From Hyphomicrobiales bacterium (GTDB lineage: Bacteria > Pseudomonadota > Alphaproteobacteria > Rhizobiales > Beijerinckiaceae), in assembly GCA_930633495.1 (NCBI GenBank), contig CAKNFJ010000001.1, forward strand, positions 3,433,001 to 3,497,000: a DNA stretch of 64,000 nucleotides. The letters are read 5' to 3'. A model generated the notes under the pieces. It was not told the DNA's origin. It searched no databases and worked only from the letters and a program-made list of their open reading frames with translations. Both the position numbers and the translations under genes were made by a program. Below, piece by piece: positions 19,345 through 38,815 of the stretch; the first letter of the stretch is position 1, and the number at the start of each line of letters is the position of its first letter.

Positions 19345-19638
19345 ATGAACACCGAACTCTTTACCGATGGGATCAGCGAAATCACCATCGGCGGCTCGAT
19401 CGTGCGGGTGGACCTGTTCAGTCTTTCGCCGACGGAGCGGGATGCCGACAACGCGCCGAAACGCGTGTTCCGCCAAAGACTGATCTTCTCGGTGGAGTCG
19501 TTCGCGAACTCGGTCGAGGTGATGCAGAAGGCGCTTCAGGGGCTGGTCGATGCCGGTGCGGTTCGGCGGACCGAACCCACTGAGACGCCTCCCTCGAACA
19601 GCCCGCGGTCCCCGAATGTCTCGAGCAATTTCCGCTGA
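19345..19638 (+). CDS. Small conserved protein at the head of the second type I secretion operon
   Basis: A 97-aa cytosolic-looking protein without membrane segments. The ATG at 19345 has GGGAG ten bases upstream; upstream in-frame codons are AT-rich leader and are not likely translated. The central part (ITIGGSIVRVDLFSLSPTE, then RQRLIFSVESFANSVEVM) forms alternating strands and a helix; the tail is Pro/Ser-rich. Its 3' end overlaps the transporter gene, so it is part of the operon. Function is unknown; a role in regulating export or binding the substrate is only a guess. Confidence 0.7.
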   Translation: MNTELFTDGISEITIGGSIVRVDLFSLSPTERDADNAPKRVFRQRLIFSVESFANSVEVMQKALQGLVDAGAVRRTEPTETPPSNSPRSPNVSSNFR

Positions 19639-21832
19639 AGCAGACGCCGCCGGCGCGGCAGCGGGGCCGATCGCAGCGTCGAACGACCCGCGACCGCAGA
19701 CCGCGCTGGATTGTTTGGCCAGGGTCGCAGCGCATCACGGCATCGATCTACCGGCGGAGCGTCTGCGGCACGCCTATGCCGTCGACGGCACTCCGACGCC
19801 GGTCGATCTCCTGCTGCGGATGGCGAAGGAGGGAGGTCTGCGCGCGCAGGCCGCGCAGCTCGATTGGGGCGATCTCGTTCGGATGGGAGAAGCCTATCCG
19901 GTTCTGCTGCGGCTCTCGAACGGCAATTGGGTGGTCGTTTTTCGTGCCGTCGAGACATCCGACGGTGCCGAGGCTGTTGTCGTCTTCGATCCGCTGGCCG
20001 AGCGTCAGGACGAGCCGGTTGTCGTCGCCCGCGAGCGGTTCTGCGCCCAATGGCAGGGCGATGCCGTTCTGATCAAGCGTGAAAACCTGTCGTCCGAGGG
20101 CCAGAGGGCTTTCGGAATCCGGTGGTTTATTCCCGAGCTGCTGCGTCAGTGGCGGCTGTTCAGAGACGTCGCCGTTTGCGCCTTGCTGCTTTACGCCCTC
20201 GGTCTCACGCTTCCCATCTTCTTCCAGCTGGTCATCGACAAGGTTCTGGTGCACGAGAGCTTCACCACGCTCTATGTCGTGGCGACCGGTGCCGCCGCGG
20301 CCTTGGTCTTCGAAGCCATATTCGGCTTTTTGCGACGCTATCTGCTGCTCTACGCCACGAACAAGATCGACATTCGCGTCGCGACCAAGACATTCGGCCA
20401 TCTGCTCGGCCTGCCGGTGACCTTCTTCGAGCATATTTCGGCCGGCGTTCTCGTGAAGCATATGCAGCAGGCCGGGCGCATTCGCGAATTCCTGACGGGG
20501 CGGCTGTTCCTGACGACGCTCGATGCCTTGTCGCTATTGGTCTTCATTCCGGTGCTGGCGCTTTACAGCTTGAAGCTGACCGCCGTGGTGCTGGCTTTCA
20601 CCGCGGCCATCGCCATCGTCGTCATGCTGCTGATGGGGCCGTTCCGCAGGCGTCTCTACGATCTGTACCAGGCGGAGGGGGCGCGGCAGGCGTTGCTGGT
20701 CGAGACCGTGCACGGCATGCGCACGGTCAAGTCGCTCGCGATGGAGCCGATGCAGGGCAAGACCTGGGGCGACCGCTGCGCGCAGGCGGTGTCCATGCGG
20801 TTCGGCGTCGAGAAGATTTCGGCGGTCGCGCAGGCGCTGACCGGCTTCCTCGAGAAGATGATGACGCTCGGGATCATCGGCCTGGGAGCGCTCGACGTCT
20901 TCAGCGGCGAACTGACCATCGGTGCGCTGGTCGCCTTCAACATGCTGGCGGGGCGGGTTTCAGGGCCGCTGGTGCAGATGGTGACGATGGTCCACGAATA
21001 TCAGGAAGTCGCCCTGGCGGTGAAGATGCTGGGCGAGGTGATGGGCCAGAAGCCCGAGAGGGACAGCAGCCGCGACGGGTTGCGGCCGGCCCTGACCGGG
21101 AAGATCGAATTCGAGAACGTCTCTTTCCGATACGGTGCCGAAGGCGCGCCCGCGCTCGATGATGTCTCGTTCTCGATCGCGCCCGGCTCGATCTTCGGCA
21201 TGGTCGGGCGAAGCGGCTCGGGCAAGACGACGCTCACGCGCCTGATTTCCGGAATGTACCCGGTGCAGCAGGGGTTGCTGCGGATCGACGGCTACGATTC
21301 CCGGGAGTTGGAACTGGAGCATCTGCGCCGGAATCTCGGCGTGGTCCTGCAGGACAGCTTTCTGTTTCGGGGTACGGTCCGCGAGAACATCGCCTGCGTG
21401 AAGCGCGACGCGACCTTCGCTGAAATCGTCAAGGCTGCCCAGCTCGCCGGCGCCGACGAGTTCATCGAGCGCCTGCCGCGCGGCTTCGACACGATGATCG
21501 AGGAGAACGCCTCGAACCTGTCGGGCGGGCAGAAGCAGCGCCTGGCGATCGCCCGGGCGCTGATCACCAATCCCCCGATCCTGATCCTCGACGAGGCGAC
21601 GAGCGCGCTCGATTCCGAAAGCGAGATGATCATCCGCCGCAATTTGAAGGGGATTGCCGAAGGTCGCACCGTCATCATCGTGTCCCACCGGCTGTCGATG
21701 CTCACAGATGCCGACGAGATCCTGGTGATCGACCGCGGTCGGATCGTCGACGTGGATCGGCATGATCGCCTGCTGTCGCAATGCACGATCTACCGCCATC
21801 TCTGGAACCAGCAGACGAAGCAGAGCGCATGA
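19616..21832 (+). CDS. Type I secretion ABC transporter with inactive C39-like domain (LapB/HlyB type)
   Basis: Exporter subunit with three parts: an N-terminal C39-like domain (ALDCLARVAAHHGI, then AYPVLLRLSNGNWVVVF), a six-helix membrane domain from about residue 165 and an ATPase with Walker A GRSGSGKTT, signature LSGGQKQR and Walker B ILILDEAT. The peptidase-type DCGxxC nucleophile is not present: the only Cys aligns with the second, non-catalytic position. The domain therefore probably binds the substrate and does not cleave it, as in HlyB and LapB. Start choice: the ATG at 19616 (738 aa) gives a 23-base overlap with the preceding gene; an ATG at 19550 would give 760 aa with a larger overlap. 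Neither has a strong ribosome-binding site. The giant DUF4082 protein is a plausible substrate. Confidence 0.88.
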   Translation: MSRAISAEADAAGAAAGPIAASNDPRPQTALDCLARVAAHHGIDLPAERLRHAYAVDGTPTPVDLLLRMAKEGGLRAQAAQLDWGDLVRMGEAYPVLLRLSNGNWVVVFRAVETSDGAEAVVVFDPLAERQDEPVVVARERFCAQWQGDAVLIKRENLSSEGQRAFGIRWFIPELLRQWRLFRDVAVCALLLYALGLTLPIFFQLVIDKVLVHESFTTLYVVATGAAAALVFEAIFGFLRRYLLLYATNKIDIRVATKTFGHLLGLPVTFFEHISAGVLVKHMQQAGRIREFLTGRLFLTTLDALSLLVFIPVLALYSLKLTAVVLAFTAAIAIVVMLLMGPFRRRLYDLYQAEGARQALLVETVHGMRTVKSLAMEPMQGKTWGDRCAQAVSMRFGVEKISAVAQALTGFLEKMMTLGIIGLGALDVFSGELTIGALVAFNMLAGRVSGPLVQMVTMVHEYQEVALAVKMLGEVMGQKPERDSSRDGLRPALTGKIEFENVSFRYGAEGAPALDDVSFSIAPGSIFGMVGRSGSGKTTLTRLISGMYPVQQGLLRIDGYDSRELELEHLRRNLGVVLQDSFLFRGTVRENIACVKRDATFAEIVKAAQLAGADEFIERLPRGFDTMIEENASNLSGGQKQRLAIARALITNPPILILDEATSALDSESEMIIRRNLKGIAEGRTVIIVSHRLSMLTDADEILVIDRGRIVDVDRHDRLLSQCTIYRHLWNQQTKQSA

Positions 21833-23256
21833 AACCGGAGAAGCCGCGAACCGTCGTGAAAGCCGACAAGACGGCGCCTTCCCGGGATGCCGGGCGGCGG
21901 CGGGGGAAGCTGTTTCCAGCCCCGGTTCGGCAACCGCGCGTGATCGCCGAGTTCCAGTCCGACGCCGTCGAGGTGGAGCAGCGGTCGCCGCCCCGTTTTG
22001 CGCACCTCACGCTCTATTGCATCCTGGCGCTCATCGTGGCGGCGGTGGCCTGGGCCTCGGTGTCGCAGGTCGACATGATCGTCACCGCCCAGGGCAAGCT
22101 GGTCACCACGCGCCCCAACCTCGTGGTGCAGCCGCTCGAGACCTCCGTGATCCGGGATATTCACGTCAAGGTCGGGGACCGGGTCAATCGCGGCGACCTG
22201 CTGGCGACGCTCGATCCGACCTTCTCGCAGGCGGACCACGATCAGCTACGCAACAGGGTTGCCGCCTTCGATGCATCGATTGCCCGCCTGAAGGCCGAGC
22301 TGGCGGGCGAGGATTACGCCGCGACCGACCCCGGCGATGCCGATGCCGTCCTGCAGCAAAAGATGTTCCTGCAGAGGAAGTCGGCTCGCGATGCCCAGAT
22401 CCAGAATTTCGATGCCCAGATCGCGTCCGCACAGGCCAATTTGAAGACGGCGCAAAACGAAGAAGTCGTGCTGACGCAGCGCCTCGACAATATGCGGGCG
22501 ATCGAGATGATGCGCAGCATGTTGATGGACAAGGAACTCGGGTCGCGGTTGAATTTCCTGCTGTCCCGCGATGCCCGCCTCGACGTCGAAAGCAATCTGG
22601 CTCGCGTTCGCGGCAACATTGCGGACTACATGCATCGCGTCGACAAGGCGCGCGCCGACCAGAAAGTGTTCTCCGAGGATTTCCTTCGCACCGCCTACCA
22701 GGACCTCGTCGAAGTGCTGGCCAAGCGGGACACGGCCGCGGAAGAGCTGAAGAAGGTCGATTTGCGCCGGCAATTGATCGTCTTGAAGGCTCCTGCCGAT
22801 GCCATCGTGCTCGAGATCGCCAACCGCACGATCGGCTCGGTCGTGCGCGAGGCGGAGACGCTTTTCGTCCTGGTCCCGCGCGACGTCGCGCTTCAGGCGG
22901 AAGTCAATGTCGAGGGCAGGGATGTCGGGCAAATTTCGGTGGGCCAGCCCGTCCGGATCAAGTTCGAACCGTTTCCGTTCCAGAAATACGGAACGGGGAA
23001 GGGGACGGTCCGCGTCATCAGCCAGGATTCGTTCGCGCCGGATCCCAAAGCCGATGCCGCACGCCGCAGCCCGGTTCCCTATTACCGTGTGCTGATCGAC
23101 TTGTCCGATGTGGAGCTTCGGCTGCCGGCCGCCCGGGCGCAGATGATCCCCGGCATGGCTGTCACGGCGGAACTGAAAGTGGGGCAGCGTAGCGTGATCT
23201 CGTATTTCCTCTACCCGCTGTTGCGGGGCTTGGACGAGAGCATTCGCGAATATTGA
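21829..23256 (+). CDS. HlyD-family membrane fusion protein of type I secretion system 2
   Basis: Periplasmic adaptor of 475 residues. The start ATG overlaps the transporter stop (ATGA), which shows translational coupling. A basic N-terminal tail of about 60 residues precedes one membrane helix (LYCILALIVAAVAWASV). Then come a lipoyl half motif (VIRDIHVKVGDRVNRGD), a long coiled coil (about 130-320), the second half motif (LKAPADAIVLEIANRTIGS) and a beta-barrel domain near the C-terminus. It fits the LapC/HlyD group. No outer-membrane channel gene accompanies it. Confidence 0.92.
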   Translation: MKPEKPRTVVKADKTAPSRDAGRRRGKLFPAPVRQPRVIAEFQSDAVEVEQRSPPRFAHLTLYCILALIVAAVAWASVSQVDMIVTAQGKLVTTRPNLVVQPLETSVIRDIHVKVGDRVNRGDLLATLDPTFSQADHDQLRNRVAAFDASIARLKAELAGEDYAATDPGDADAVLQQKMFLQRKSARDAQIQNFDAQIASAQANLKTAQNEEVVLTQRLDNMRAIEMMRSMLMDKELGSRLNFLLSRDARLDVESNLARVRGNIADYMHRVDKARADQKVFSEDFLRTAYQDLVEVLAKRDTAAEELKKVDLRRQLIVLKAPADAIVLEIANRTIGSVVREAETLFVLVPRDVALQAEVNVEGRDVGQISVGQPVRIKFEPFPFQKYGTGKGTVRVISQDSFAPDPKADAARRSPVPYYRVLIDLSDVELRLPAARAQMIPGMAVTAELKVGQRSVISYFLYPLLRGLDESIREY

Positions 23257-23315: not shown

Positions 23316-25787
23316 TCACACGGAACGAAAATGGGCGGTCGCGGCGTTGAGTGCGCGCACCGTTCCCGCCGGCGGTTCCGTTTCCGTGTTCAGGCTTGTC
23401 AGTCTGATGTGCCTGCCGCCGCCCGGGGCGAGATGAAACCAGTTGTCGGCGGGTTGGAAACCCGGGGCATCGATCTGGACCGATTGTGCCAGCCGATCCG
23501 TCGACAGCGCGAGCTGCCAGCCGTCTGCATCCCGCGTGAGCTGCACGGAGAGCGTTGCGTTCGCCATGGCGCGCGCGCGGCCAAGCGGGAAATGGAAGGC
23601 CTCGGCCAGCGGATCTCCTCCCTCGGGCGACCTGATCCGCGCGACCACGACATCGTGCGAGGGTGGCCCGAAGCGGAAGGCATAGCCCGTATCGAAGAAG
23701 GCGCCGAAGATCTCCGTTGCGGGGAGGCTCAGCCCTTGCCGCGCCTTCAGTTCGATCTCGCGGCGGCCTTGCACCACCGGCTGCGCGCCATCCCGCAGGC
23801 AGGCGAGCTCAAGGACGACATGGCGCGTTGCTGCGGTCTCGTTGAGAAGGTGAACGTCGATGCCGTTTGTCCCCTCGTCGGTCAGGGTCACCTGCACCGG
23901 GCGGAAGGCGCGCTTCAGGGCGAAATAAGCGGGCTTCGGCACGCCTGTCGCATCGACGATCCCCCAGCCTGCGCCGGGGAGCAGATCCTGGAAGGTCCAG
24001 ACGAGCGCGCCGTTGCAGGAGGAGCCGGGCCGGCGCCATTCGGCGAAGGTGGCTTCCATCACCTCGCCGCTGGCGGCCCGCGACAGGTCGAGATAGCGGC
24101 TCGGGTCCTCCCGGCGCAGTCGTGCCGGATCGTTGCCGTAGAGGACGGTCAGATAATGGTCCCGGACATCCTCGAAATCCCATGAAGCGCTGCGGTCGCG
24201 CGGCACGCGGGCCTTCCAGCGCGGATCATGGACGGCCGGCACCGCCAGCCCGGCGTCGAGGCTGCGCTGTTCCGGTACATTGGCGAAGGCAAGACACTCG
24301 GCGGCGAAGCGAACCTGGGCCCGCCGGGCATCCTCCAGAGGGCGGCAATAGGCGCCGACGCCGTAATAATGTGTCACGCCGGTATTGGGCGAGAACGGCA
24401 TCGCGCCGCCGCCCGGCGTATTGGAGAGATAGGCCACGTCCGGCCGCCAGCGCGCCGCCAGTTCCGGCAGAACGATGTCGGTGAGCGGGCTGGACCAGGC
24501 ATCGGGGGGCAGGCCCAGCATTGCCGCCTGCTGTGCCATCTCGCTTCCGCCGCACAGGATGGTGAGCGACGGCGAGGCGGCATGGCGATTGAGGAGCAAC
24601 TCGGCTTCTTCCCGGACCTGCGCGAGGAAATCCGGATCGCGATCGGGATAATGGAAATTGGCGAACATGAAGTCCTGCCAGACCATGATCCCGAGCTCGT
24701 CGCAGAGATCGAAGAAGGCTTGCGTCTCGTAGGTCGTGATGCCGCTGAGCCGCAGCATGTTCATGCCGGCTTCCGCCGCCAGCCGCAGAAGCGGCTCATA
24801 GGCGGCCCTGTCGCCGGGCAGGTCGACGATGTCGGCATTCGTCCAGCATGCGCCCCGGCAGAAGATGTGCTGCCCGTTGATCGATATGGCGAAGTCGCGC
24901 CCATCCACTCCCCGGTCGATCGCGATGCGGCGAAAGCCCGTCCGCCCGATCTTGCGACGAGTGCCTGCGGCAGCGATCTCGACATCGTGCAGGATCGGCA
25001 GGCCATGGCTGAGCGGCCACCATGCGGCGACGTTGGGGAGCGCCAGCTCGCCCGCGAAGCCCGTCTCGGTACGGCGCAATTCCGTCTGCGCGCCCGCGCA
25101 ATGGAGCATGACCGGCTCGTCCAGCCCTGATGCTGCGAAATCGACGCGGAGCCGCCCGGTGCCATCCTCGTCGAGATGGGACCGGATCCGAATGTTCCGC
25201 GGTTGCCCGGCCTCGTCGCGTGTGAGCGTGACCGGCCGATAGGGCCCGGCCGGGTGGATGGACGGGCACCAGCCGGGCATGTAGCCGAGCAGGCTGGTGC
25301 GGACCAGCCGCAGACCCGGCGGCGTGATCATCTGCTGCCGCCAGCGGGCTCTGGGGCCCCGTTTCTCGAAATGCGGGGCCAGCGCCCGAAAGCAGATCGC
25401 CAGCCGGTCGGATCCCGAGAGGATGACGGGCAGCTCTCGCTCGACGAACATCGAAGCGCAGTCCAGCTTCCGTTCGCCGTTCCAGAAGATTTCGGCGATG
25501 GTGCCGAGCCCCTCGAAGCGGAGGGTCGCGGGCCCCGGCGCTTCGCCCTGCAGGTCGAGCAGATACCACGCGTCCTCGGTGTTGAGCGGACGCGGCTCGG
25601 TCCGGTCGAAGCGTCCCGCCCGTTCCAGAGCCCCCGCGACCGTTCCCGGCACGGGCGCTTCGATCAGGTCCAGGCCGTCGCGTTCGGCCGGCGGGGCATT
25701 CCAGGTGTCGGCGGCCGTCATGATCATCCGCCAGCCTCGGTCGAGCCGCTGGCTGTTGTCGTTCCGGCTCGCGCCGGTGCTGCGCAT
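23316..25787 (-). CDS. GH2 beta-mannosidase-like glycoside hydrolase
   Basis: An 823-aa protein with the GH2 arrangement: N-terminal jelly-roll sugar-binding domain (LDRGWRM ... PVPGTVAGAL), Ig-like domain, TIM barrel (CRGACWTNADI, GMNMLRLSG, LGIMVWQDFMFAN) and C-terminal beta domains. The nucleophile position is kept (FAAECLAFANVPEQ aligns with the SEFG region of beta-mannosidases). The acid/base Glu is in LCGGSEMAQQ, where the usual Asn before Glu is replaced by Ser. There is no signal peptide. It is the last gene of the carrier-protein operon, eight bases after the DUF1839 gene. The ATG at 25787 keeps the first conserved strand. Substrate is unknown; a mannoside or a modified glycan from this operon is possible. 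Confidence 0.82.
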   Translation of the reverse strand: MRSTGASRNDNSQRLDRGWRMIMTAADTWNAPPAERDGLDLIEAPVPGTVAGALERAGRFDRTEPRPLNTEDAWYLLDLQGEAPGPATLRFEGLGTIAEIFWNGERKLDCASMFVERELPVILSGSDRLAICFRALAPHFEKRGPRARWRQQMITPPGLRLVRTSLLGYMPGWCPSIHPAGPYRPVTLTRDEAGQPRNIRIRSHLDEDGTGRLRVDFAASGLDEPVMLHCAGAQTELRRTETGFAGELALPNVAAWWPLSHGLPILHDVEIAAAGTRRKIGRTGFRRIAIDRGVDGRDFAISINGQHIFCRGACWTNADIVDLPGDRAAYEPLLRLAAEAGMNMLRLSGITTYETQAFFDLCDELGIMVWQDFMFANFHYPDRDPDFLAQVREEAELLLNRHAASPSLTILCGGSEMAQQAAMLGLPPDAWSSPLTDIVLPELAARWRPDVAYLSNTPGGGAMPFSPNTGVTHYYGVGAYCRPLEDARRAQVRFAAECLAFANVPEQRSLDAGLAVPAVHDPRWKARVPRDRSASWDFEDVRDHYLTVLYGNDPARLRREDPSRYLDLSRAASGEVMEATFAEWRRPGSSCNGALVWTFQDLLPGAGWGIVDATGVPKPAYFALKRAFRPVQVTLTDEGTNGIDVHLLNETAATRHVVLELACLRDGAQPVVQGRREIELKARQGLSLPATEIFGAFFDTGYAFRFGPPSHDVVVARIRSPEGGDPLAEAFHFPLGRARAMANATLSVQLTRDADGWQLALSTDRLAQSVQIDAPGFQPADNWFHLAPGGGRHIRLTSLNTETEPPAGTVRALNAATAHFRSV

Positions 25788-25795
25788 CTCGGTTT

Positions 25796-26770
25796 TCACC
25801 GCAGCCGGGTCGCCAGCCCGGCCATCAGCTTGTCCCAGGCCTCGGCGGCCGGGTCTAGCACCGTGGCGAGCGGCTCGAATTTGCGGCGCGTCACTGCCCG
25901 GGCGAGCTGGAACTGCGTCGACTTGGCAATTTCGGCGATACGTCGCGCGTGGCCGGCAGCCTCGGCGTAGCGGCCATCGGACCCGATCCAGTCGAGATGG
26001 GCGGCAGCCAGCTCGAAATTGCTGCCGAGCTGCCGCAGCGTGTTGAAGGCGTATTTGTGGAAGAAGTCGAAGGGCCGTTCCGCAACGGCGCGCACCTGTT
26101 CCGGAAAGCGCGCGGCGAAGCCGGCGATCGGATTGTGCGCGGGACGGCGCCCGAAATGATGCGCCAGCAGCCTTTCCGCCTCCCTGCGGAGATGGGCACG
26201 GTCGGGCAATGCGGCGGGGAAGCGGGCGAATTCGGTATAGGGCAGGAAGGGGAGGTCTTCGGGGCCGTCCTTCATCCGAAACAACCCATCGAAATCCTCG
26301 CCTTCCAGCCGGAAGAAGCCGGCATTGTGGAAGTAGTCGATGGCGCGCCCGTCCATGTCCAGCCGATTGATCGCGACCGTCGTCTTGCCGTGGTCGGTCC
26401 GATAGGAGACGCCACGCGTATCCGGCAGGAAATAGCTGTCCATCTCCACCAGGCACAGCCGCCCGCGGCCGATCTGCTCGGTCACATGGCGTTCGACCCG
26501 GTCGTAGATCGCAAGCTCGGTGCAGCGGATATCGTAGAGCTTCTCGAGATCCTCGAGAGGGATCTTGAAGAAGGTGAACTGGTCGCCTTCGAAATCCTGC
26601 GTCAGGGTGAAGGCGAGCATGGCCGCCGGTTCGGCGCCGATGGCATGCAGAACCTCGATCCAGAGGTCGACATAGCAGTTGGTTTCCGGCCACAGCCGTT
26701 CCGGGTGGTGCAGCGCGTGCGGCTGGTAGTCCGCAGGGTCGAGCCCCTTGACGACGGCTGGCCCCTGCAA
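25796..26770 (-). CDS. DUF1839 family protein
   Basis: About 324 residues, recognised as DUF1839 by segments such as ETNCYVDLWIEVLHA, FEGDQFTFFKIP and VEMDSYFLPDTRGVSYR. The family is of unknown function and is known to occur beside amino acid:[carrier protein] ligases, as here. Acidic and aromatic residues are frequent, and the VEMDSYFLPDT motif suggests a thiol- or amide-handling fold, but no catalytic site is established. No ATG is available near the family start; a TTG at 26770, one base after the ligase stop, is the best candidate. It is the fourth gene of the operon. Confidence 0.75.
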   Translation of the reverse strand: MQGPAVVKGLDPADYQPHALHHPERLWPETNCYVDLWIEVLHAIGAEPAAMLAFTLTQDFEGDQFTFFKIPLEDLEKLYDIRCTELAIYDRVERHVTEQIGRGRLCLVEMDSYFLPDTRGVSYRTDHGKTTVAINRLDMDGRAIDYFHNAGFFRLEGEDFDGLFRMKDGPEDLPFLPYTEFARFPAALPDRAHLRREAERLLAHHFGRRPAHNPIAGFAARFPEQVRAVAERPFDFFHKYAFNTLRQLGSNFELAAAHLDWIGSDGRYAEAAGHARRIAEIAKSTQFQLARAVTRRKFEPLATVLDPAAEAWDKLMAGLATRLR

Positions 26771-26771
26771 G

Positions 26772-27680
26772 TCAGTACCCAAGTGCCTTGCGCACCGTCG
26801 CCGGCCAGGCGGCGACATCGAGCCCGTGATGCTTGAAGAGCGCCAGCGCGATGCGCTCCAGGCCGAAGCCGACACAGGCCGTATGGGCGGTTTCGCCATC
26901 GGCGGTCTGCAGCCCCCAGGTCTTGCCGAAATGGTCCTGATGGTAGTTGAAGCTCATGCAGGCCGTCGGCTTTTCGACCGAGGTGACCGGGATCAGCAGT
27001 TCGAACTTCAGGTTCTGGTCGCGCTGGTTGTTCTTCATCATCCGCCCGGCGCGGCCGAAGAAGGGATCGTTGGCGACGTCGATCTCCACCGGGAGCTCGA
27101 CCTGCGCCATCAACGCCTTGCCCCGCTCCATCCAGCCATTGCGGAAGGCGGTGACATGCTCCGGCGTTCCCATGCAGACATATTCGCGCATGCGGAAGAG
27201 CTGCATCCGGGCCGGATCCATCGAGGGCTCGTGGCGGAAGCAGTAGGATTGCAGGTCGAACAGGGCGCCGCTCGCGGGAAGCGCGCCGCGTTTGGCCACG
27301 ATCGGATAGAGCGGGTAGCAGGCGGCCGGCGTCAGGACGATGTCGGTCGACTCCTGCCCCTTGGTCCAGTCCTCGCCGATCTCCATGCACTGCAGAAGGT
27401 TCGCATGGTCGAGGTCGTGGCCGCAGAAGCTGTGGACCGTGCCGGCGAGCTGCGGGAAGCTCTTCATGTAGCCGCTGCCCTCGAAATGGACGCGGTTCAT
27501 GCCGGGCGGAAAGCGGATCATCTCGGCGCCGTCAGCGCGGCCGAAGGTGCCGATCAGCGCCTCGAAGCGGGTGATGACGTCCTCGAAGACGCCGCTGCGG
27601 CCATAGAGGCCCTCGACGCCGGTATCGATCAGCAGGCCGCTCTCGAAGAGGCGGTCCAGCAAGGTGGTCTGCATGTCCAT
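26772..27680 (-). CDS. Amino acid:[carrier protein] ligase (SerRS-like class II aaRS homologue)
   Basis: A 302-aa stand-alone catalytic core of a class II aminoacyl-tRNA synthetase without a tRNA-binding arm. This family activates a small amino acid (glycine or alanine in the studied Bradyrhizobium and Agrobacterium proteins) and loads it on the phosphopantetheine arm of a carrier protein. Motif 2 is visible in [20 protein letters not shown] and motif 3 in [12 protein letters not shown]121, E166 and C269 have exactly the spacing of the zinc ligands of the atypical archaeal-type SerRS and of Bll0957 of Bradyrhizobium. The carrier protein gene is two genes upstream in the same operon, so its partner is most likely that protein. 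Three bases separate it from the dehydrogenase gene. Confidence 0.9.
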
Positions 27681-27683
27681 CGC

Positions 27684-28856
27684 TCAACCCATTAGGCTGG
27701 TGTCCTGCCGGTGCACCAGCAGGAGTGTCGAAGTGTTGCCGAGAATGCGGTCGTTCGAGATCATCAGCTGCGCCGAATGTGCGTCGCGCAGATGCCGCCC
27801 AAGGCTATAGGGGGTGCCGTTCTTGTAGCCGAGGATACCGCAGACCAGCATCGCATGGTTGATTACGGTCAGAATGATTTCCGACGCGCCGACCTTCACG
27901 TTGTTCATCGCCACGGCGAAGCCGACGGAGGAGAGGCGGTCCGCATCCTCCCGCGCTGCTTGGTATTCCCGGATGCCGGCAATGATGCTGGCCTTCAGCT
28001 GCTGGAGCAGGCTCGAGGCTTCTGCCAGACGGAGCGCGCCGGGCGGCGGCGCATTCGGACTCTTGCGTGCCGCGGCGCGCACGAAGCTCTGCGCCCGGCT
28101 CATCGCGTTGACGGCAATGCCGTACCAGACGGAGCTCCACAGCAGATGGGAGATCGCCAGCATGGATTGCGCCGCGATCTCGGCGAAAGGCTTGGGCAGG
28201 ATCTGCTCGGCCGGGGCATCGCCCTTGAACAGATAACCTTCCGAGCAGGTGCCGCGCATGCCGAGCGTGTCCCACTCCTGCGTGCGCTCCAGCGTGTACT
28301 GGTCCTTGCAGAACACGGTCATCACCTGGTCGGTGGAGGCCGCATCGGCATGGGCGCGCGAGGTGATGAGGATGGCGTCGGCATTAGCGCCATAGGAGAT
28401 GACGGTGGCATCCTTCTCCAGATGGCAGGCCGCGCCGTCGACCTCGATGGCGCAGATGCTGTTGCGCAGATTGCCGCCGATGCCGCCTTCGGTCGTCGCG
28501 GATGCGAGGAGGAGCTGTTCGTCGGCGACGCGGCGCATGAAGCCCCGGTGCCAGTCGCTCTCCACCCCGTGCGTGACGAGGCTGGAGAGCTTGATATGGT
28601 GCATGGCGAAGACCATCGCCGCGGACGCGCAGGACTGGCCCAGCAGCGAGCAGATTTCCGCCACGTCGGACAGCGCCGCGTCCTCTCCGCCCAGCGTGCC
28701 CGCGATCTGGATCGACAGGAGCCGTTCGGCGCGCATCGCATCGACGGCTTCGCGCGGGAAACGCGCCTTGGCGTCCACGTCTTCGGCGTGGATCGCAGCG
28801 ACGGCCGCAACGCGGCCGGCGCGCTCGGAGAGGCTCATGGCGCGAAGGTCGTTCAT
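27684..28856 (-). CDS. Acyl-CoA dehydrogenase-like flavoprotein of the carrier-protein operon
   Basis: A 390-aa protein of the acyl-CoA dehydrogenase fold: N-terminal helical domain, middle beta domain (ASATTEGGIGGNLRNS, KDATVISYGANADAILITSRA) and C-terminal helices. The start overlaps the carrier-protein stop (ATGA), so the two are coupled. Because it is encoded with a carrier protein and an aminoacyl:carrier-protein ligase, its substrate is probably the aminoacyl or acyl group on that carrier protein and not a CoA ester; this is inference. Flavin-dependent alpha,beta-oxidation of carrier-bound aminoacyl groups is known for related enzymes in pyrrole biosynthesis. A catalytic Glu could not be assigned by eye. 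Confidence 0.82.
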   Translation of the reverse strand: MNDLRAMSLSERAGRVAAVAAIHAEDVDAKARFPREAVDAMRAERLLSIQIAGTLGGEDAALSDVAEICSLLGQSCASAAMVFAMHHIKLSSLVTHGVESDWHRGFMRRVADEQLLLASATTEGGIGGNLRNSICAIEVDGAACHLEKDATVISYGANADAILITSRAHADAASTDQVMTVFCKDQYTLERTQEWDTLGMRGTCSEGYLFKGDAPAEQILPKPFAEIAAQSMLAISHLLWSSVWYGIAVNAMSRAQSFVRAAARKSPNAPPPGALRLAEASSLLQQLKASIIAGIREYQAAREDADRLSSVGFAVAMNNVKVGASEIILTVINHAMLVCGILGYKNGTPYSLGRHLRDAHSAQLMISNDRILGNTSTLLLVHRQDTSLMG

Positions 28857-29116
28857 TTGTCGACGGTTGCCCCGCCGGTGAGCTGGGTGATGGCGGTTGA
28901 AATGGCGCCGATGCTCTGGAACGACTTGCGGTTCAACAGGGAGTCGGGGAACTCGACATCGAAGGCTTCTTCGAGCGCCAGCATGGTCTGGACGGAGGCG
29001 AAGGACGACAGCCCGGCCGCGTAGAGATCCGCATCCTTCCCGAGCGATGCCGCATCGACCGACAGCTCGCTGTGAGCCGCCAGAATTTTGCGGACCCTGG
29101 ATTCGATGTCGTTCAT
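28853..29116 (-). CDS. Acyl carrier protein, partner of the amino acid ligase
   Basis: An 87-aa carrier protein. The phosphopantetheine attachment site is S38 in AAGLSSFAS, which aligns with the G-x-D-S-L motif of standard carrier proteins; here Asp is replaced by Ser. The helix after it (VQTMLALEEAF) is well conserved. ATG at 29116 has GAGGG upstream. It is the first gene of a five-gene minus-strand operon (carrier protein, dehydrogenase, ligase, DUF1839, GH2). It is too specialised to be the fatty-acid AcpP. Confidence 0.9.
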   Translation of the reverse strand: MNDIESRVRKILAAHSELSVDAASLGKDADLYAAGLSSFASVQTMLALEEAFDVEFPDSLLNRKSFQSIGAISTAITQLTGGATVDK

Positions 29117-29484: not shown

Positions 29485-30258
29485 TCACTGGGAGAAGAAC
29501 AGCAATCTCCACAGTGCGACAGGATTCGTCTTCATATACCTGCCGAACAGTCGTTTCGACTCAAGCTTGGTCCGATAGAGCCATTCCAGGCCGGCGTTCT
29601 GCATCCATTTCGGCGCACGGCTGTTTTTTCCGGAAAGGAAGTCGAACAACCCACCCGATGTTTTGATGACGCCGATTCCGCGGAGCTTCTCGATATTTCT
29701 CTCGACGAATTTCTGCTCATACGGGACGCCGAGGCCGATCCAGAGGATATCCGGCTTCAACTCCGATATCTCCTTGACGATATCGGCTTCTTCGCCCCTC
29801 GAAAAATAGCCGTGCCGCGATCCGGCGAATCTAAGCCTCGGGTACAGCCTCTGCATGTTCGCGACGGCGCGCCGGTTCACATCCGGGGTTCCGCCCAGAA
29901 AATAGAAGCTGACATTCGTCCGCTCCGCCATTTCGGCGACGGCATGGACGAGATCGGTGGTGGCGACGCGTTCCGGAACGGGGTGCTTTGAGACGAAGCG
30001 CGACAGCAGCACCATCGGCATGCCATCCGCGTGTATTTGGTCGGCTTTCAGGAGCGACTGCCGGAACGAGGCATCATCGTGAGCGAGGGCGATGACCTGC
30101 CCGTTCGCGGAGGTCGAGTAAAACGGACGTTGGTGCCTGCCGCGAGCGTTCAGCGATGTCTCGATCAGGGCGCGAGCAGCGTCTTGCATCCCGATGCAGG
30201 AGATTGGCAGGCCACCGAGAATGGCGGTCGGCACCTCACTGCGATGCTGCCGCGACAT
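29485..30258 (-). CDS. WecG/TagA/CpsF-family glycosyltransferase
   Basis: A GT26-family inverting transferase that adds the second sugar (ManNAc or ManNAcA type) to an undecaprenyl-diphosphate-linked sugar at the cytosolic membrane face. Family motifs: TANxQ-like STSANGQVIALA, the ADGMPMVLLSR segment with the catalytic Asp, YFLGGTPDV, and LKPDILWIGLGVPYEQKF. The C-terminus is hydrophobic and basic, as required for membrane binding. ATG at 30258 (257 aa) with AAGGA close upstream fits the family length; an ATG at 30342 would give 285 aa without a good ribosome-binding site. It lies among other polysaccharide genes. Confidence 0.87.
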   Translation of the reverse strand: MSRQHRSEVPTAILGGLPISCIGMQDAARALIETSLNARGRHQRPFYSTSANGQVIALAHDDASFRQSLLKADQIHADGMPMVLLSRFVSKHPVPERVATTDLVHAVAEMAERTNVSFYFLGGTPDVNRRAVANMQRLYPRLRFAGSRHGYFSRGEEADIVKEISELKPDILWIGLGVPYEQKFVERNIEKLRGIGVIKTSGGLFDFLSGKNSRAPKWMQNAGLEWLYRTKLESKRLFGRYMKTNPVALWRLLFFSQ

Positions 30259-30721
30259 GAATCCTTCGATACCCATCGGCCCGTTCCCGCACTTGGATCG
30301 CGGAAGGCAATCTTCCAGGCCGCCGACTAGAAGCGAGCGCATCCAAGTATTTCATTTCCTTTAAAGGCTGTTTGTCCGGCTGTCGATCGCGATTTCGCTG
30401 CTCCTGTGTATAAAGTTTGTAATTGAGCTTTTTTTCTATACGATTTTCGGCGAATTTTTAGTGAGTGAATTATGATATTATTAGTCAATTTCCCTAAGGT
30501 TTATTCTGTATTTTCATCATATCTTAAATGTATTCAATGATATTTCGCCCGTCTGCGGCGGAAGATGCTTCTTGATTGTCGTCGGATGTTCGGCGGTCGC
30601 TCGTATGGGAGCTGGCCCGGGACGATTTGAAGAAGTCGTTCTCACAGCGACGACCGGGCGCGGCAGGCACCACCCCGGCCTCGTACAGGTTTTGCGACGA
30701 ACGCGGGACGCCGAGCTGACG
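30259..30721. other. AT-rich intergenic region
   Basis: No gene seen. Bases about 30390-30550 are strongly AT-rich in a GC-rich background. The promoter of the WecG-type gene is probably here. Confidence 0.45.
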
Positions 30722-31789
30722 TCAGCCCTTTCCCTGATCGACATCGGCGACGATCAGGCGCCACATGCTTTCGACCTCCCGATCGAAGTCGATCTTGCCT
30801 GCTCCTGTTTCGCGCGCCTGCAGCACGGTTTCCGCCACGGTCGAGATATCGGCGTTCGTCTCGACGAGACGAAGGGCGTGGATCGCCAGGAGGCTCTGAA
30901 ACAGGCCGTGATGGGAGAGCGTATCGCTTCGTTCCGGGGCGTTCACGACGACCGGCTTGCCGGAGAGGGCGGCTGCGAGCACGCTTCCCCGGCGCGAGGT
31001 CAGCCCCTCCTGAAAGAGGTAGCAGAAGACGTCGACCTGCTCGAAAATCGCGAAAAGCTCATCCTCGCCGGCGATGTAACCTGTGACCTGAACACGATCG
31101 GCCAAGCCGAGACGCCGCACCTGATCGAAGAACTGCTCCTCGACATCGTCCATGCCCTTGATGAACGAGCCGGCAAACACGACGCCGACATCATGGCCTT
31201 GCGACAACAGGCAGGAAGCGACCTCCAGAACTGTGGTCGATTGCTTCTTCGGATAGATCGAGCCGAACTGGCCGATGATGAGGCGCCCGCTCCGACGCTG
31301 CTCACTGAGGCTCTCGCTAATGCGGGACGGGCGCGCCGCCGCCGGGGGGAGAAGATTGGGCGGGACCGGCAACAGGCGCCGATCGCGCGGCGCGAGTGCG
31401 GATAGCCGCGTTCCCGCGAATTCGGATGCGATCTCCGGAGCGGAAAAATAGATGCGTCTCGCGAGCAGCACGACCGGGCTCAGCACGAGGCGCCGCTTCC
31501 AGTCGAGCGCCAGCCATTCGTGCAAAATGACGACGACGTCCCGCCTGAAGATCCGCGCTACGAGTGCGACGACAATGGGGGATAGGAGCCTGCGCTTCCA
31601 GGCGACGATCGGGAAACTGAGGATCACGCCATCGGCGTCGCGCACCATCCTGGCGATGCCGGGAAGATTTCCGTCGAGGGCGCGCATCAGCGCGCGCGGC
31701 TGCATCCGTCTGGCCAGCTGGCGCGTGAATTCCTCGACACCGCATGTCTGCTCGGCATCGGATATCAGGACGAGGTAGCGCAGCTTCAT
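30722..31789 (-). CDS. GT4-like glycosyltransferase
   Basis: A 355-aa protein with the GT-B fold. The C-terminal half has the typical pattern GRLIIGQFGSIYPKKQ, then VVFAGSFIKGM, VTGYIAGEDELFAIFEQVDVFCY and a Glu-containing loop (FQEGLTSRRGSVLAAALSG) that resembles the E-x7-E nucleotide-sugar binding motif with the first acidic residue kept. The N-terminal part begins MKLRYLVLISDAEQTCGVEEF, similar to acceptor domains. It probably transfers one sugar in the local exopolysaccharide or O-chain pathway; donor and acceptor cannot be read from sequence. Confidence 0.8.
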   Translation of the reverse strand: MKLRYLVLISDAEQTCGVEEFTRQLARRMQPRALMRALDGNLPGIARMVRDADGVILSFPIVAWKRRLLSPIVVALVARIFRRDVVVILHEWLALDWKRRLVLSPVVLLARRIYFSAPEIASEFAGTRLSALAPRDRRLLPVPPNLLPPAAARPSRISESLSEQRRSGRLIIGQFGSIYPKKQSTTVLEVASCLLSQGHDVGVVFAGSFIKGMDDVEEQFFDQVRRLGLADRVQVTGYIAGEDELFAIFEQVDVFCYLFQEGLTSRRGSVLAAALSGKPVVVNAPERSDTLSHHGLFQSLLAIHALRLVETNADISTVAETVLQARETGAGKIDFDREVESMWRLIVADVDQGKG

Positions 31790-32800: not shown

Positions 32801-33751
32801 TCAATCCGAGGCCTTGTAGGGTTGCGGCAGGACGTTGAAGCTTGCGGTGATCCTGCCGACCGACATCAGGAACGGGTGACTTGCGGGCAGAAGATCGCGG
32901 GTCGATGCGAAAAGCGCCAGCGAGCGGAAGACGCTCAATCCCAGGCTGGCGACGTTCTTGGCGAGCACATGGGCGGCCGTGCCGTGCAGGCGATCGATCG
33001 TGTAGTTGATGCTTCCGGTCCGGATCGAGCGCGTCGTCAGAAAGCGCGCCGTGGTGCGTTCGGCCGGCACGAATTCGTGGATCTCGGCCTCGCTGCACCA
33101 CCATGAGGTGAAGCCCGCCTTGCGGCAGCGCGTGAAGAATTCCATGTCGCCGCCGCCGAGAAAGTTGAAACGCCGGTCGAAGGGCGGGGAGGGCAGGCTT
33201 TCGAAGACGCGCCGGCGGATCAGGCAGTTGCCCGAGCCGTAGATCTGGCTCACGGCACGGGTGCTGCCATCGATCGATTGAAAGAGCGGATGCTGCCTGA
33301 CGGCGTCCGGCGTGGGCGCCTCGAACTCGCGGATGACCGGGCCGCCGACAATGTCGGCCTCCTGCCGGCGCGCCAGCTCGACGATGTTCGCAAGCCAACC
33401 GGGCATGGCGATCTCGTCGTCGTCGATCATCAGGAAGAACTCGGCGGCGGGGTAAGCCGCCATCGCGTCCGTGAATGCGCGGTTGATGGCGTGGCAGTTG
33501 CCCTGCTGGGCCTCGACGCCGATCCGATGCGGGATATCGGTTGCGGACAGCAGCGCGTGCGCGCAATCGGCGCCAACCGGGTTTGCGCTGTCGTTGTCGA
33601 TGACCACGATGGCAAAGCCGAAGGGCGTCTCCTGGCCTGCGACGGACGGAATCGTGCGGGCCAGCCAGTCCGGCCTGCGGAACGTCGGAATGCAGATGAC
33701 AGCCTCGATCGGCCTGCCGCTGCCGTCTCGGCTTTCCTCGTCTGAGGCCAT
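32801..33751 (-). CDS. GT2-family glycosyltransferase
   Basis: A 316-aa GT-A transferase. N-terminal EAVICIPTFRRPDWLARTI is the usual family-2 opening, FAIVVIDNDSAN follows, the DxD-type motif is MIDDDEIAMPGW and the acceptor-site region is RFNFLGGGDMEFFTRC, close to the ED-x-E/D catalytic segment. There is a weak C-terminal hydrophobic stretch. The ATG at 33751 is directly before the conserved domain; longer in-frame starts would overlap the ligase gene. It probably acts in the same polysaccharide pathway as the neighbouring ligase. Confidence 0.83.
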   Translation of the reverse strand: MASDEESRDGSGRPIEAVICIPTFRRPDWLARTIPSVAGQETPFGFAIVVIDNDSANPVGADCAHALLSATDIPHRIGVEAQQGNCHAINRAFTDAMAAYPAAEFFLMIDDDEIAMPGWLANIVELARRQEADIVGGPVIREFEAPTPDAVRQHPLFQSIDGSTRAVSQIYGSGNCLIRRRVFESLPSPPFDRRFNFLGGGDMEFFTRCRKAGFTSWWCSEAEIHEFVPAERTTARFLTTRSIRTGSINYTIDRLHGTAAHVLAKNVASLGLSVFRSLALFASTRDLLPASHPFLMSVGRITASFNVLPQPYKASD

Positions 33752-33833
33752 CGCTTCTGTACCCTCGTCTTGCGCGGACGCGACGTTCTTTCCCGTCGGA
33801 AAGCCGGCGCCCGGATCGTCTGTTGGCGGTTGC

Positions 33834-35204
33834 TCAGCTCGCTGCCGGATAGCCCGGCGTGGGCGTCGTTCCAAGGTTCGCTATCGGCTGTTGTTGATGG
33901 GCGCGGGCCTGGTAGCGCAGCCCGAAAACGGCCATCAGCATCGTGAACCAGATCGGGCCGTTATTGCCGAAGAACGGGTTTTCGAGGCAGCTGAAGAACA
34001 GCGAGAAGAGCCAGATGCGGATGAAGAGGCGCGTCAATTCCGGCTCCTGACGGCGCTTCAGGGCGACGCCAGCGTGATGCGAGGGCAATACGACCAGCCA
34101 GACGAGGACGAGCAGGAGCAGCGGCAGGCCGCCATTGATGATCTGATCGAGGTAGCCATTATGCGCGTTGGCGGCTGTGACGGCCCAGGTGTTCTCCGAT
34201 TGGCCGCCATGCACGAGCGCGCTCATCTGCCAGAAGGACTGGAAACCGTAACCCTTCAGGGGATTGGCGGCTGCTGCCGCGAGGGCGAGCTCCCAGATCG
34301 ATGTGCGATCCGTGAAAGTCGGGTCGACCCTGATGGAGGCCAGGAAGCTGCGCATCTCCGGCGAGACCGCTGCCGACATCAGAATGAAGTTCAGCATCGC
34401 CAGCCCGCCCAGCAGCAGAGGGGTGCGCAGGGCCCCGCAGCGCTCGAACAGCCAGCCGGCCGCCAGGATCGCGGGCAGCATGGCGGCCGAGGTTTTCCCG
34501 CCGGATTTGAGCAGGAAGAGGCCGGCTGCGGCCGTGATCAGGATCCCGAGCCAGAACGAGTAGCGTTTGGAAATGTAGAGGCCGAAGAAGACCGCATAGA
34601 CCATCGCGGCTGCCGCCACGTTCTTGTGGCCGAAATGCCCGCGCCAATCGCCGGCCAGCGATTGTTCCAGGCTATCGGAGGCCTGGTGAATGGCCCGGTC
34701 GGGCAATGCGATAACGCCGAGAAGAGACAAGCCGATTGCCGCGAGCAGGCCGATGCTCATCAGCTTCGCAAACTGGGAACTGTTGCGAGGGAGCAGGAGG
34801 ACGGCGCTGGCACACATGCAGACGAGAGCGGAGTAGACGATGCGCCGGAACGCCGTTGCCGGGGAGTCGGAGAAAAGAGACGACAGCATCATCCACGCAA
34901 ACAGGACGCCGATGATCATGTAGGATTCAAAGACGACCTGACGCGCCGGATGCTGCAGAAGCGCAATGAAGACGATGGCGGACATCGTGACGACGATCAG
35001 CTGGTTGAGCTGGTCGGAGCTGTTGCCATAGGCCGTCAGCAGGCCGGCATCGTTCGGATTGGGGAAGGGGGCCAGCCCGATCCAGAAATAGAAAAAGACG
35101 AGGATGAACAGCGCCGGCCGAAAGCTGCCGGCATGGTGGCCATGGACCGCACGGGACTCAGGCGCGGGCGCTGTTTCGGTCGACTGCAAGACAAGGGCTC
35201 TCAT
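33834..35204 (-). CDS. O-antigen ligase / Wzy-type polymerase (membrane protein)
   Basis: A 456-aa integral membrane protein with about ten to twelve hydrophobic helices and a large periplasmic loop. The ligase-family signature is visible in SLAGDWRGHFGHKNVAAA (helix start) and in the loop TDRTSIWELALAAAAANPLKGYGF followed by AHNGYLDQIINGG, where the conserved Arg and His are thought to bind the lipid-linked glycan. The family either polymerises repeats (Wzy) or attaches them to lipid A core or another acceptor; sequence alone does not decide. It is upstream of, and probably cotranscribed with, the GT2 gene. Confidence 0.85.
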   Translation of the reverse strand: MRALVLQSTETAPAPESRAVHGHHAGSFRPALFILVFFYFWIGLAPFPNPNDAGLLTAYGNSSDQLNQLIVVTMSAIVFIALLQHPARQVVFESYMIIGVLFAWMMLSSLFSDSPATAFRRIVYSALVCMCASAVLLLPRNSSQFAKLMSIGLLAAIGLSLLGVIALPDRAIHQASDSLEQSLAGDWRGHFGHKNVAAAAMVYAVFFGLYISKRYSFWLGILITAAAGLFLLKSGGKTSAAMLPAILAAGWLFERCGALRTPLLLGGLAMLNFILMSAAVSPEMRSFLASIRVDPTFTDRTSIWELALAAAAANPLKGYGFQSFWQMSALVHGGQSENTWAVTAANAHNGYLDQIINGGLPLLLLVLVWLVVLPSHHAGVALKRRQEPELTRLFIRIWLFSLFFSCLENPFFGNNGPIWFTMLMAVFGLRYQARAHQQQPIANLGTTPTPGYPAAS

Positions 35205-35561
35205 GTGAGAAGGTGGACACCGCAATCTCACTCGAACGGGACGGGCGCCGACAATGCCGTCAGACGCAGCACGCTCCAAATTGCAGAGCAGGAATGTACG
35301 AACCGCTAAAACGGCGAGCCGCGGGCAGGGCCGGCGCAGCCTTTGACCGCTGGAACGAGCGCGTTTCTCCGGCGAGGGTTAACACCGGCAATTCGGGCAG
35401 GCCAGACTGTTTCTGCCGGCTGCCGCTCCGCGTTGGGGCCGCGCCTTGCGGTCTCCATCGAACGATGCCCGGTCCGATCGCGCCTTGATATTCGCCGCCC
35501 GGGTGGGCATCATTTTCGATTGAAAGATCTATCGCGCTCCTGAGCCCCAACAGAAACAACT
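35205..35561. other. Divergent intergenic region
   Basis: 357 bases between the ligase gene and the hydrolase gene, which are transcribed away from each other. Promoters for both should be here, but no recognisable sites were found and no gene is supported. Confidence 0.4.
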
Positions 35562-37396: not shown

Positions 37397-38815
37397 TCAG
37401 GCGCGGGCCGCAAGCCGTGCCATCGTCCCGGTCCGGATATCGGCCACGTTCAGGGCGAACGACGCGAGGACATAGACGATCGCGCCGGTGACCACCGGAA
37501 GCGCAAGGTCGAGGGCGCCGCTCCCGGGGAAGCTGCGGTCCACCACATAGGTCGGCAGCGCCATGAGGGCCGTCGCCAGGCAGACCTTCGCGGTCGAGAC
37601 GAGATCGAAGGGGAGCTTGTAGGCTTTGCGTGACAGCGCGTAACCGACCAGCGTGCCGATCACCTCCGACAGCAGGAGCGACCAGGCCGCGCCGATCAGC
37701 TGATAGCGCGGAATCAGGATCGACATGGCAGCGATGTTGCTGACCAGGGTGATGACACCCTGCGCGATCATCAGCAGCGGCTTCTTGTGAAGCTGAAAGC
37801 TCACATGGATGAACTGGTAGGATATCGAGCGGAAGAGCCAGGCAAAGGCAATGATCGGGATGAGGTTCGCTGCCGCCTCGTGGAATTCTCCACCCAGAAT
37901 CAGGCCGGCGAGTTTCCTGGCGACCAGCGCCATGCCCACGACGGCCGGCATCAAAACGCCCAGCAGCAGCTCCATGCTGTGCAGCATGTGCCGGGTTGCC
38001 GCTTCCTTGTTGCCTTGGGTCAGCAAGCGAATGGCGATCGGGATGATGGCCGAGCCGACCGCGACGCCCGGGAACAGAATGACCTGGCGCACGAGATCGG
38101 CCGAGGCGCCGTAGATGCCGGCCGCATGCTCGCCGAGATACGCGCCGATGACGAGCCGGTCGAGCATCGCGTGCAGCATGAAAACCGCTCCCGAAACCGT
38201 CATGGGCAGACCGAACCGAAGCATTTCCTTCAGGATGCGGCTGTCGAAGGGCTTGAGCGGGCGGCGCCAGATATAAGCCGAGTAGAGCGCCGAGGTCAGC
38301 ACATAGGAAAGCGCGACGCTCAGGATGAGCCCGTCGCCGCCGAGGTCGAAAACGATCACCAGCAGGCAGGAGGAGGCGAGCGCCAGCGCCGCGCGGATGA
38401 TCGTCGACCACATATAGGCGGTCGTTCTTTGGCTCGACCGGAACAGTTCGAGGTAAAACTCGAAAAATCCGATCGAATAGGCCAGCGCTATCGCCGACAT
38501 CGGATAGTCGAAAGTCGTCGGGAAAAACTTGATCGCGATGCTCGCGAGTATCGGAATGAGTAATATCAACGCCAGGAACGAAAACAAAACCGTCGTTCGG
38601 ATGTCTGCGGCCCCCTCTTCGGAGGCAAGGCGCACGATCGAGACCTTGATCCAACCGAACAGGACGGTCGATATCATCGCGGCAATGCCGGAACCGATGA
38701 TATAGATTCCGTACTCGTTCGGCGACAGCACGCGCGTGAACAAGACAACGGAGATGAAGCCAAACACCGCCGAAACGACATTGGCCGTCATGTAGGACGA
38801 GACTTGACGAAACAT
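37397..38815 (-). CDS. Wzx-type polysaccharide flippase (MOP superfamily)
   Basis: A 472-aa membrane protein with about twelve to fourteen hydrophobic helices and few charged loops. The N-terminus MFRQVSSYMTANVVSAVFGF and VLFTRVLSPNEYGIYI match the PST/Wzx opening, and later LGEHAAGIYGASADLVRQV is the usual mid-protein signature. Such proteins flip undecaprenyl-linked repeats across the inner membrane. Its ATG overlaps the stop of the GH10 gene (TGATG), so the two are translationally coupled. With the ligase and transferases nearby it completes a Wzx/Wzy-type set, although no chain-length regulator is in the window. Confidence 0.9.
   Translation of the reverse strand: MFRQVSSYMTANVVSAVFGFISVVLFTRVLSPNEYGIYIIGSGIAAMISTVLFGWIKVSIVRLASEEGAADIRTTVLFSFLALILLIPILASIAIKFFPTTFDYPMSAIALAYSIGFFEFYLELFRSSQRTTAYMWSTIIRAALALASSCLLVIVFDLGGDGLILSVALSYVLTSALYSAYIWRRPLKPFDSRILKEMLRFGLPMTVSGAVFMLHAMLDRLVIGAYLGEHAAGIYGASADLVRQVILFPGVAVGSAIIPIAIRLLTQGNKEAATRHMLHSMELLLGVLMPAVVGMALVARKLAGLILGGEFHEAAANLIPIIAFAWLFRSISYQFIHVSFQLHKKPLLMIAQGVITLVSNIAAMSILIPRYQLIGAAWSLLLSEVIGTLVGYALSRKAYKLPFDLVSTAKVCLATALMALPTYVVDRSFPGSGALDLALPVVTGAIVYVLASFALNVADIRTGTMARLAARA

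Follow-up and report, generated by a model that had tools for sequence, protein, structure and literature searches.

The 64,000-nucleotide window analysed here, a stretch of contig CAKNFJ010000001.1 from a Hyphomicrobiales bacterium with a 5.94-Mb genome, carries a minus-strand operon of five genes packed into 5.8 kb. The operon encodes, in order, an aminoacyl carrier protein, a flavoenzyme of the acyl-CoA dehydrogenase fold, an amino acid:[carrier protein] ligase related to aminoacyl-tRNA synthetases (aaRS), a DUF1839 protein and a glycosidase resembling glycoside hydrolase family 2 (GH2) (Table 1). The tight coupling in this order described by a first-pass annotation of the locus is borne out, with a 4-bp overlap between the carrier and flavoenzyme genes and gaps of 3 and 1 bp separating flavoenzyme from ligase and ligase from DUF1839. 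The DUF1839 coordinates are those of a 324-residue form (P0001), for which the list of open reading frames (ORFs) has a longer frame, and the GH2 start is placed at the ATG 8 bp past the DUF1839 stop in preference to a longer listed ORF. A sixth gene, encoding a tandem α/β-hydrolase, sits 6.4 kb past the 5′ end of the operon, outside the segment covered by the first-pass annotation, and is treated here as a further component of the same candidate pathway.

Table 1. Positions of the six candidate pathway genes and of neighbouring polysaccharide genes in the window.
Feature	Position	Strand	Support
GH2-like glycosidase, SE motif, no evident signal peptide	23316-25787	minus	PF22666 31.5 bits; PF17753 26.1 bits
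DUF1839, papain-fold, Cys32; His127, Thr131, His148 conserved	25796-26770	minus	PF08893 435.2 bits
Amino acid:[carrier protein] ligase, class II aaRS catalytic core, 302 aa	26772-27680	minus	NF005479 517.6 bits
Acyl-CoA-dehydrogenase-fold flavoenzyme, usual dehydrogenase Glu absent	27684-28856	minus	PF02771 26.6 bits
Aminoacyl carrier protein, 87 aa, phosphopantetheine Ser38 in GLSS	28853-29116	minus	PF00550 33.7 bits; NF005480
WecG/TagA/CpsF glycosyltransferase	29485-30342	minus	PF03808 187 bits
GT4 glycosyltransferase	30722-31789	minus	PF13692 35.3 bits
GT2 glycosyltransferase	32801-33874	minus	PF00535 58 bits
Wzy-type O-antigen ligase/polymerase	33834-35279	minus	PF04932 35.1 bits; weak TIGR03097
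Tandem alpha/beta-hydrolase, sixth component, resembles exosortase-A hydrolases 2 + 1	35562-37343	plus	co-occurrence with DUF1839
Wzx-type flippase, ORF probably over-long at 5′ end	37397-39355	minus	PF01943 75.6 bits, residues 183-441

In three overlapping genome samples, the DUF1839 family (PF08893) is present in 4 of 289 genomes at class level, 65 of 397 at order level and 16 of 398 at phylum level. Gene order was compared across 121 loci, comprising the best 80 of 520 confirmed DUF1839 loci (nearly all from Rhizobiaceae and relatives), 40 further fetched stretches and the window itself. All five genes stand in the same order on one strand in 117 of them, including the window, and the arrangement is therefore not due to chance. 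The four exceptions are two loci near contig ends (L090, L109), one without GH2 in the locus (L127) and one whose DUF1839 copy sits at the end of its contig (L152); at one other locus (L131) extra ORFs lie between DUF1839 and GH2. DUF1839 is split over two frames at L157 and L158, the flavoenzyme match at the latter being split as well, and GH2 is in pieces at L091. The ligase lies directly upstream of DUF1839, on the same strand, in all 65 DUF1839 genomes of the order, with a median distance of 41 bp (maximum 473) between the matched domains. It also scores above its cut-off in 23 order genomes that lack DUF1839, out of 88 with the ligase. Twenty of these 23 loci were fetched: the flavoenzyme is beside the ligase in every one and the carrier gene, on the opposite strand, in 18, and neither DUF1839 nor GH2 was found within 7 kb on either side of any. 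The first-pass annotation had put forward, as a check on its own proposal, that DUF1839 and GH2 should be conserved alongside the ligase; this holds for the loci with DUF1839 (type I) and does not extend to the ligase loci without it (type II). Since type II loci keep only the flavoenzyme, mostly with the carrier, the flavoenzyme belongs to the aminoacyl-carrier step itself, and DUF1839 and GH2 to later handling. The pathway is real and conserved; its function as a whole is what we infer below.

The DUF1839 protein of the window groups with that of Mesorhizobium loti LU (tree support 96/93), two genus-mates being placed elsewhere, and the other four operon proteins share 61–87% identity with those of locus L047 and 52–72% with those of L122. 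Judged from this grouping and these identities, the operon appears to have been acquired horizontally. A metagenome-assembled genome labelled Arenimonas (L116), possibly a mixed bin, carries a typical Rhizobiales operon with 69% DUF1839 identity.

The sixth component emerged from clustering of neighbouring ORFs as a protein of about 600 residues with two α/β-hydrolase domains, present at 74 of the 121 loci, and its cluster was the one taken on to a genome search. At E ≤ 1e-60 it occurs in 65 of the 397 order genomes, which are exactly the 65 with DUF1839, lying less than 20 kb from DUF1839 in 51 and elsewhere in 14. Shared ancestry alone is not enough to explain this match, because three families (f1, f173 and f185) mix genomes with and without DUF1839, and in all three the hydrolase goes with DUF1839. 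A deeper and looser search of 41 selected genomes recovered the hydrolase in all six DUF1839-positive genomes, which lie outside the order (E values 5e-102 to 8e-147); of the 35 DUF1839-free genomes, 23 gave weak matches only, all at 1.6e-11 or poorer apart from one at 4.5e-42. That match is a broken tandem-hydrolase remnant (G538:C1:1694274-1695609) in a ligase-bearing genome without DUF1839, which suggests that the later part of the pathway has been lost there.

The family assignments of the ligase and carrier made at first pass are upheld by NCBIfam models (517.6 bits against a cut-off of 357 for NF005479; 106.4 against 72 for NF005480) and by structure matches, with the ligase scoring below the cut-off of PF00587 (23.0 against 29.3 bits). 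The closest solved relatives are 4h2w (E 5e-103) and 3mey, the Bll0957 protein (E 1e-98), for the ligase, and 4h2w_C and Atu2571 (2jq4), both at E about 2.5e-22, for the carrier. Ligase residues 113–297 align with residues 311–506 of the type-2 seryl-tRNA synthetase 3w3s, the whole protein corresponding to the catalytic core without the tRNA-binding domain. Cys121, Glu166 and Cys269, the putative Cys/Glu/Cys zinc ligands, are invariant in 120 aligned rows, as are the Gly and Ser of the carrier GxxS motif in 118 aligned sequences. Ligases of this type were reportedly described in 2010, and glycine is the main substrate of the studied members closest to that of the window. Enzymes for Gly, Ala and Ser appear in a review table (PMC9437257).

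The DUF1839 model gives a full-length fold match whose closest entries, CcbD, CtaG and AziU3, stand far above the next one; CtaG and AziU3 presumably stem from antibiotic pathways. DUF1839 has also been assigned as papain-like, with a proposed Cys-Thr/Ser-His triad (PMC10318531), so that a protein left at first pass as a family of unknown function can now be placed more narrowly. Conservation is high at Cys32 (118 of 120 letters), His127 and His148 (both 121 of 121) and Thr131 (118 of 121). From its position and the published assignment it follows that Cys32 is the predicted nucleophile, and the modelled fold makes DUF1839 a probable aminoacyl transferase. Two genomes (G887, G948) have two DUF1839 copies each (L040, L041, L034, L035), with the catalytic Cys lost from the operon copy and kept in the other, likely forming pseudoenzyme–enzyme pairs. 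In public records, three DUF1839 proteins (P0017, P0044, P0114) bear the names "serine--tRNA ligase" or "succinylarginine dihydrolase", which were probably transferred from neighbouring genes or weak matches.

In the flavoenzyme, the position of the usual catalytic Glu is occupied by Ile or Val in all 119 type I sequences and by Ile in all 20 of type II, the register being taken from an alignment with 8i4p; the place is that of CaeB1 E372 and of residue 376 in medium-chain acyl-CoA dehydrogenase (MCAD). Residue 236, which presumably aligns with an alternative Glu known in this fold, and residue 88 show no acid in the counts. Residues common to both types include Trp195, His237, Trp240, Trp244, Arg357, Asp358, Ile366, Asn368 and Arg370. 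Rankings by sequence and by fold intermix dehydrogenases with the oxygenases DnmZ, KijD3, DszC and TdsC, nitrososynthases being among the sequence matches. The missing Glu points to a probable oxidase or oxygenase acting on the carrier-bound amino acid.

The GH2 protein has its best solved matches in 5n6u (E 3.1e-46) and 2je8 (E 3.1e-45). The first-pass annotation had noted an unusual acid/base region; both catalytic Glu residues, identified through the 2je8 alignment, are invariant in 118 sequences, and what is unusual is the residue before the acid/base, Ser in place of Asn in 117 of the 118. With the register again from 2je8, the position of the mannosidase Trp holds Gly in 88, Pro in 16, Ser (as in the window) in 11 and Ala in 3. 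A simple hydropathy test found no hydrophobic stretch at the N terminus in 118 of 119 sequences. A profile search of the 41 genomes placed all six DUF1839-positive genomes at 1086–1299 bits and none of the other 35 at that level, three of which gave distant matches of 163–180 bits. One genome (G186) has a DUF1839 locus without GH2; its GH2 gene lies on another contig, where its stop codon and the start codon of the tandem hydrolase gene overlap by one base.

The polysaccharide setting proposed at first pass is likewise supported, with WecG, GT4, GT2, Wzy and Wzx genes past the 5′ end of the operon. A gene of the xylanase family GH10 lies in this cluster (window positions 38815-40005), and GH5 recurs at other loci. 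Twenty stretches were fetched around distant or second hydrolase copies, covering all 14 distant-copy genomes and four others, and the hydrolase ORF was recognised in 14 of the 20. Clusters recurring there, which are rough single-linkage groups of greedily chosen ORFs annotated through one representative each, include Wzz/GNVR (8 loci), Wzx (4 and 3), GT4 (4), GH5 (4), WecG (3), a GINT1_N protein (3) and a flavin reductase (3). Families were also tallied for 100 of 135 picked neighbouring ORFs, hand-chosen, from 23 of 24 picked loci; in the NCBIfam tally ABC transporters dominate, with exosortase A hydrolases 1 and 2 at the top (six each). On the other side of the operon, at window positions 10536-17024 and 19550-23256, a type I secretion ABC transporter and an HlyD gene lie beside a gene for a 2162-residue protein with DMFA2_C, DUF4082 and cadherin-like repeats, the HlyD gene being convergent with that of GH2, their 3′ ends about 60 bp apart.

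The reading we prefer, at a probability of roughly 0.5, is that a carrier-protein pathway puts an amino-acid-derived acyl group onto a polysaccharide precursor. Gene order, co-inheritance, fold and residue conservation are observed; the chemistry of every step, the amino acid, the acceptor and the product are what we infer. The ligase would activate a small amino acid (glycine is the likeliest) and load it onto the phosphopantetheine of the carrier. There the flavoenzyme would oxidise it at the nitrogen or the C–N bond, giving a hydroxylamine, an oxime or an imine, and not by α,β-dehydrogenation. DUF1839 would then take the acyl group onto Cys32 and, in a CcbD-like amide formation, hand it to an amine, most likely that of an amino sugar. 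Trimming, release or editing of the substituted sugar, or of its carrier form, may fall to the GH2 enzyme, apparently cytosolic, and to the tandem hydrolase before Wzx/Wzy-type machinery exports the glycan. A more specific version, offered tentatively, has N-oxidised glycine as the substituent that the six genes put on a polysaccharide precursor in the cytosol, for example as an N-hydroxyglycyl group or an oxime amide of a 2-amino sugar. In this version loading is by the aaRS-derived enzyme and transfer by the CcbD-like one, and the substituted sugar is recognised by a GH2_14-type enzyme and the tandem hydrolase. We know of no such substituent in bacterial glycans. If correct, this version would explain why the two assayed GH2_14 enzymes turn over pNP-galactoside slowly and show weak or no activity on the oligosaccharides tried (PMC12243196).

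Several points weigh against transfer to a polysaccharide by this route. The genomes are not independent samples, the 65 with DUF1839 falling into 24 genera; the alignment behind the hydrolase query stems from DUF1839 loci, and the 397-genome search scored only the three best first-look candidates per genome, as opposed to up to 32 at E ≤ 1e-5 in the 41-genome search. None of the 25 Pfam families found most often in the 100 tallied ORFs is an amino-sugar gene family, so that the neighbours do not point to an acceptor amine. A profile search of solved chains found no sequence link between DUF1839 and CcbD or CtaG, returning one irrelevant match, and the Cys-His-Glu triad of CcbD differs from the Cys-Thr/Ser-His proposed for DUF1839 (PMC10318531). 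For the flavoenzyme, fold searches are divided between oxygenase and dehydrogenase, with the monooxygenase TdsC first in Foldseek and dehydrogenases leading the Z ranking, where DszC stands at rank 25. At the top of the sequence matches stands 7p98, a dehydrogenase in which the printed alignments show no Glu at the usual place either, so that the missing residue does not exclude dehydrogenation. The one flavin reductase family sought, in a search of linked genes, lies near only 4 of 161 loci.

The same enzymes might instead make a small secreted aminoacyl-sugar metabolite, as the lincosamide and butirosin pathways do, with the polysaccharide genes mere neighbours. We consider this unlikely. 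In its favour, the nearest DUF1839 folds belong to antibiotic pathways; the unit seems horizontally mobile; and outside the six genes the neighbourhood varies, each polysaccharide family occurring in a few of the 23 tallied loci at most. Against it, the distant tandem hydrolases are themselves accompanied by Wzz, Wzx, WecG and GT4 genes, and a dedicated sugar-nucleotide gene set was not seen in the unit. In another reading, DUF1839 esterifies a hydroxyl, for which the D-alanyl groups of teichoic acids are a precedent, or acts as a thioesterase, the tandem hydrolase removing the group. Ser402, Asp520 and His553 of the second hydrolase domain, kept in all eight aligned sequences, can be read as a hydrolase triad compatible with such a role, and papain-fold enzymes include both hydrolases and acyltransferases (PMC10318531). 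This reading is nonetheless doubtful, since the closest DUF1839 folds, far above the rest, include the amide-forming CcbD. Least probable is the proposal made at first pass, now weakened, that the flavoenzyme is a true α,β-dehydrogenase producing a dehydro-aminoacyl group: its best sequence matches are indeed acyl-CoA dehydrogenases mixed with nitrososynthases, led by the Glu-less 7p98, and CaeB1 and ColB1 dehydrogenate a carrier-bound amino acid (PMC8149447), but the usual Glu, which CaeB1 requires, is missing from all 139 sequences, no acid appears at 236 or 88, and glycine, the reported ligase substrate, cannot undergo this reaction because it has no β carbon.

Amide transfer of an oxidised aminoacyl group to a polysaccharide precursor can be set beside several characterised systems. 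CaeB1 and ColB1 also act on a carrier-bound amino acid, dehydrogenating cysteine, and CaeB1 uses the Glu base that the window flavoenzyme lacks, the E372L change abolishing product formation (PMC8149447). The lincosamide condensing enzyme (CcbD/LmbD) is among the closest folds to DUF1839, at a sequence identity of 11–12%. By its residue traits the GH2 protein resembles subfamily GH2_14, in which SE replaces NE, Gly replaces His/Trp/Glu and signal peptides are few (PMC12243196); the window protein has Ser, likewise a small residue, where GH2_14 has Gly. Both assayed GH2_14 members are slow on pNP-galactoside, one weakly cleaves two galactosides, neither cleaves mannobiose, and members have been suggested to accept substituted substrates (PMC12243196). 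Ser also precedes the acid/base residue in the glucosaminidase CsxA (PMC6566704). Both domains of the tandem hydrolase match those of exosortase-A hydrolases 1 and 2 (TIGR03101, TIGR03100), which likewise have polysaccharide genes nearby, whereas the window domains are fused and score below both cut-offs (75.6 against 168.45 bits for hydrolase 1; 62.3 against 202.75 for hydrolase 2). Bll0957 and the Agrobacterium carrier Atu2571 belong, by E value, to the same families as the window pair, and the published work on them ends at carrier loading, the biological role of these ligases still being called unknown in 2022 (PMC9437257). Among the papers listed in ranked literature searches, no functional study tied such ligases to a polysaccharide, which is not a claim of absence from print. 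The co-inherited six-gene list, the fold-based transfer step and the active-site test make that role assayable, and the pathway would give DUF1839 and SE-type GH2 enzymes a physiological setting. The closest precedent is a 2010 note added in proof (PMC2922099), which linked the ligase to a carrier, a redox enzyme, the conserved ORF Atu2574, a glycosidase and surface-sugar genes, suggested monooxygenation and proposed an amide with a surface sugar, the same outline as that reached here. That note itself gives no fold for the ORF, sixth gene, DUF1839-free type or active-site test. What the present analysis adds to it, as far as it is readable, is the GH2 motif, the absence of the Glu and the resemblance of the DUF1839 fold to CcbD, together with the sixth component and the DUF1839-free loci, the last two of which also lie beyond the material of the first-pass annotation.

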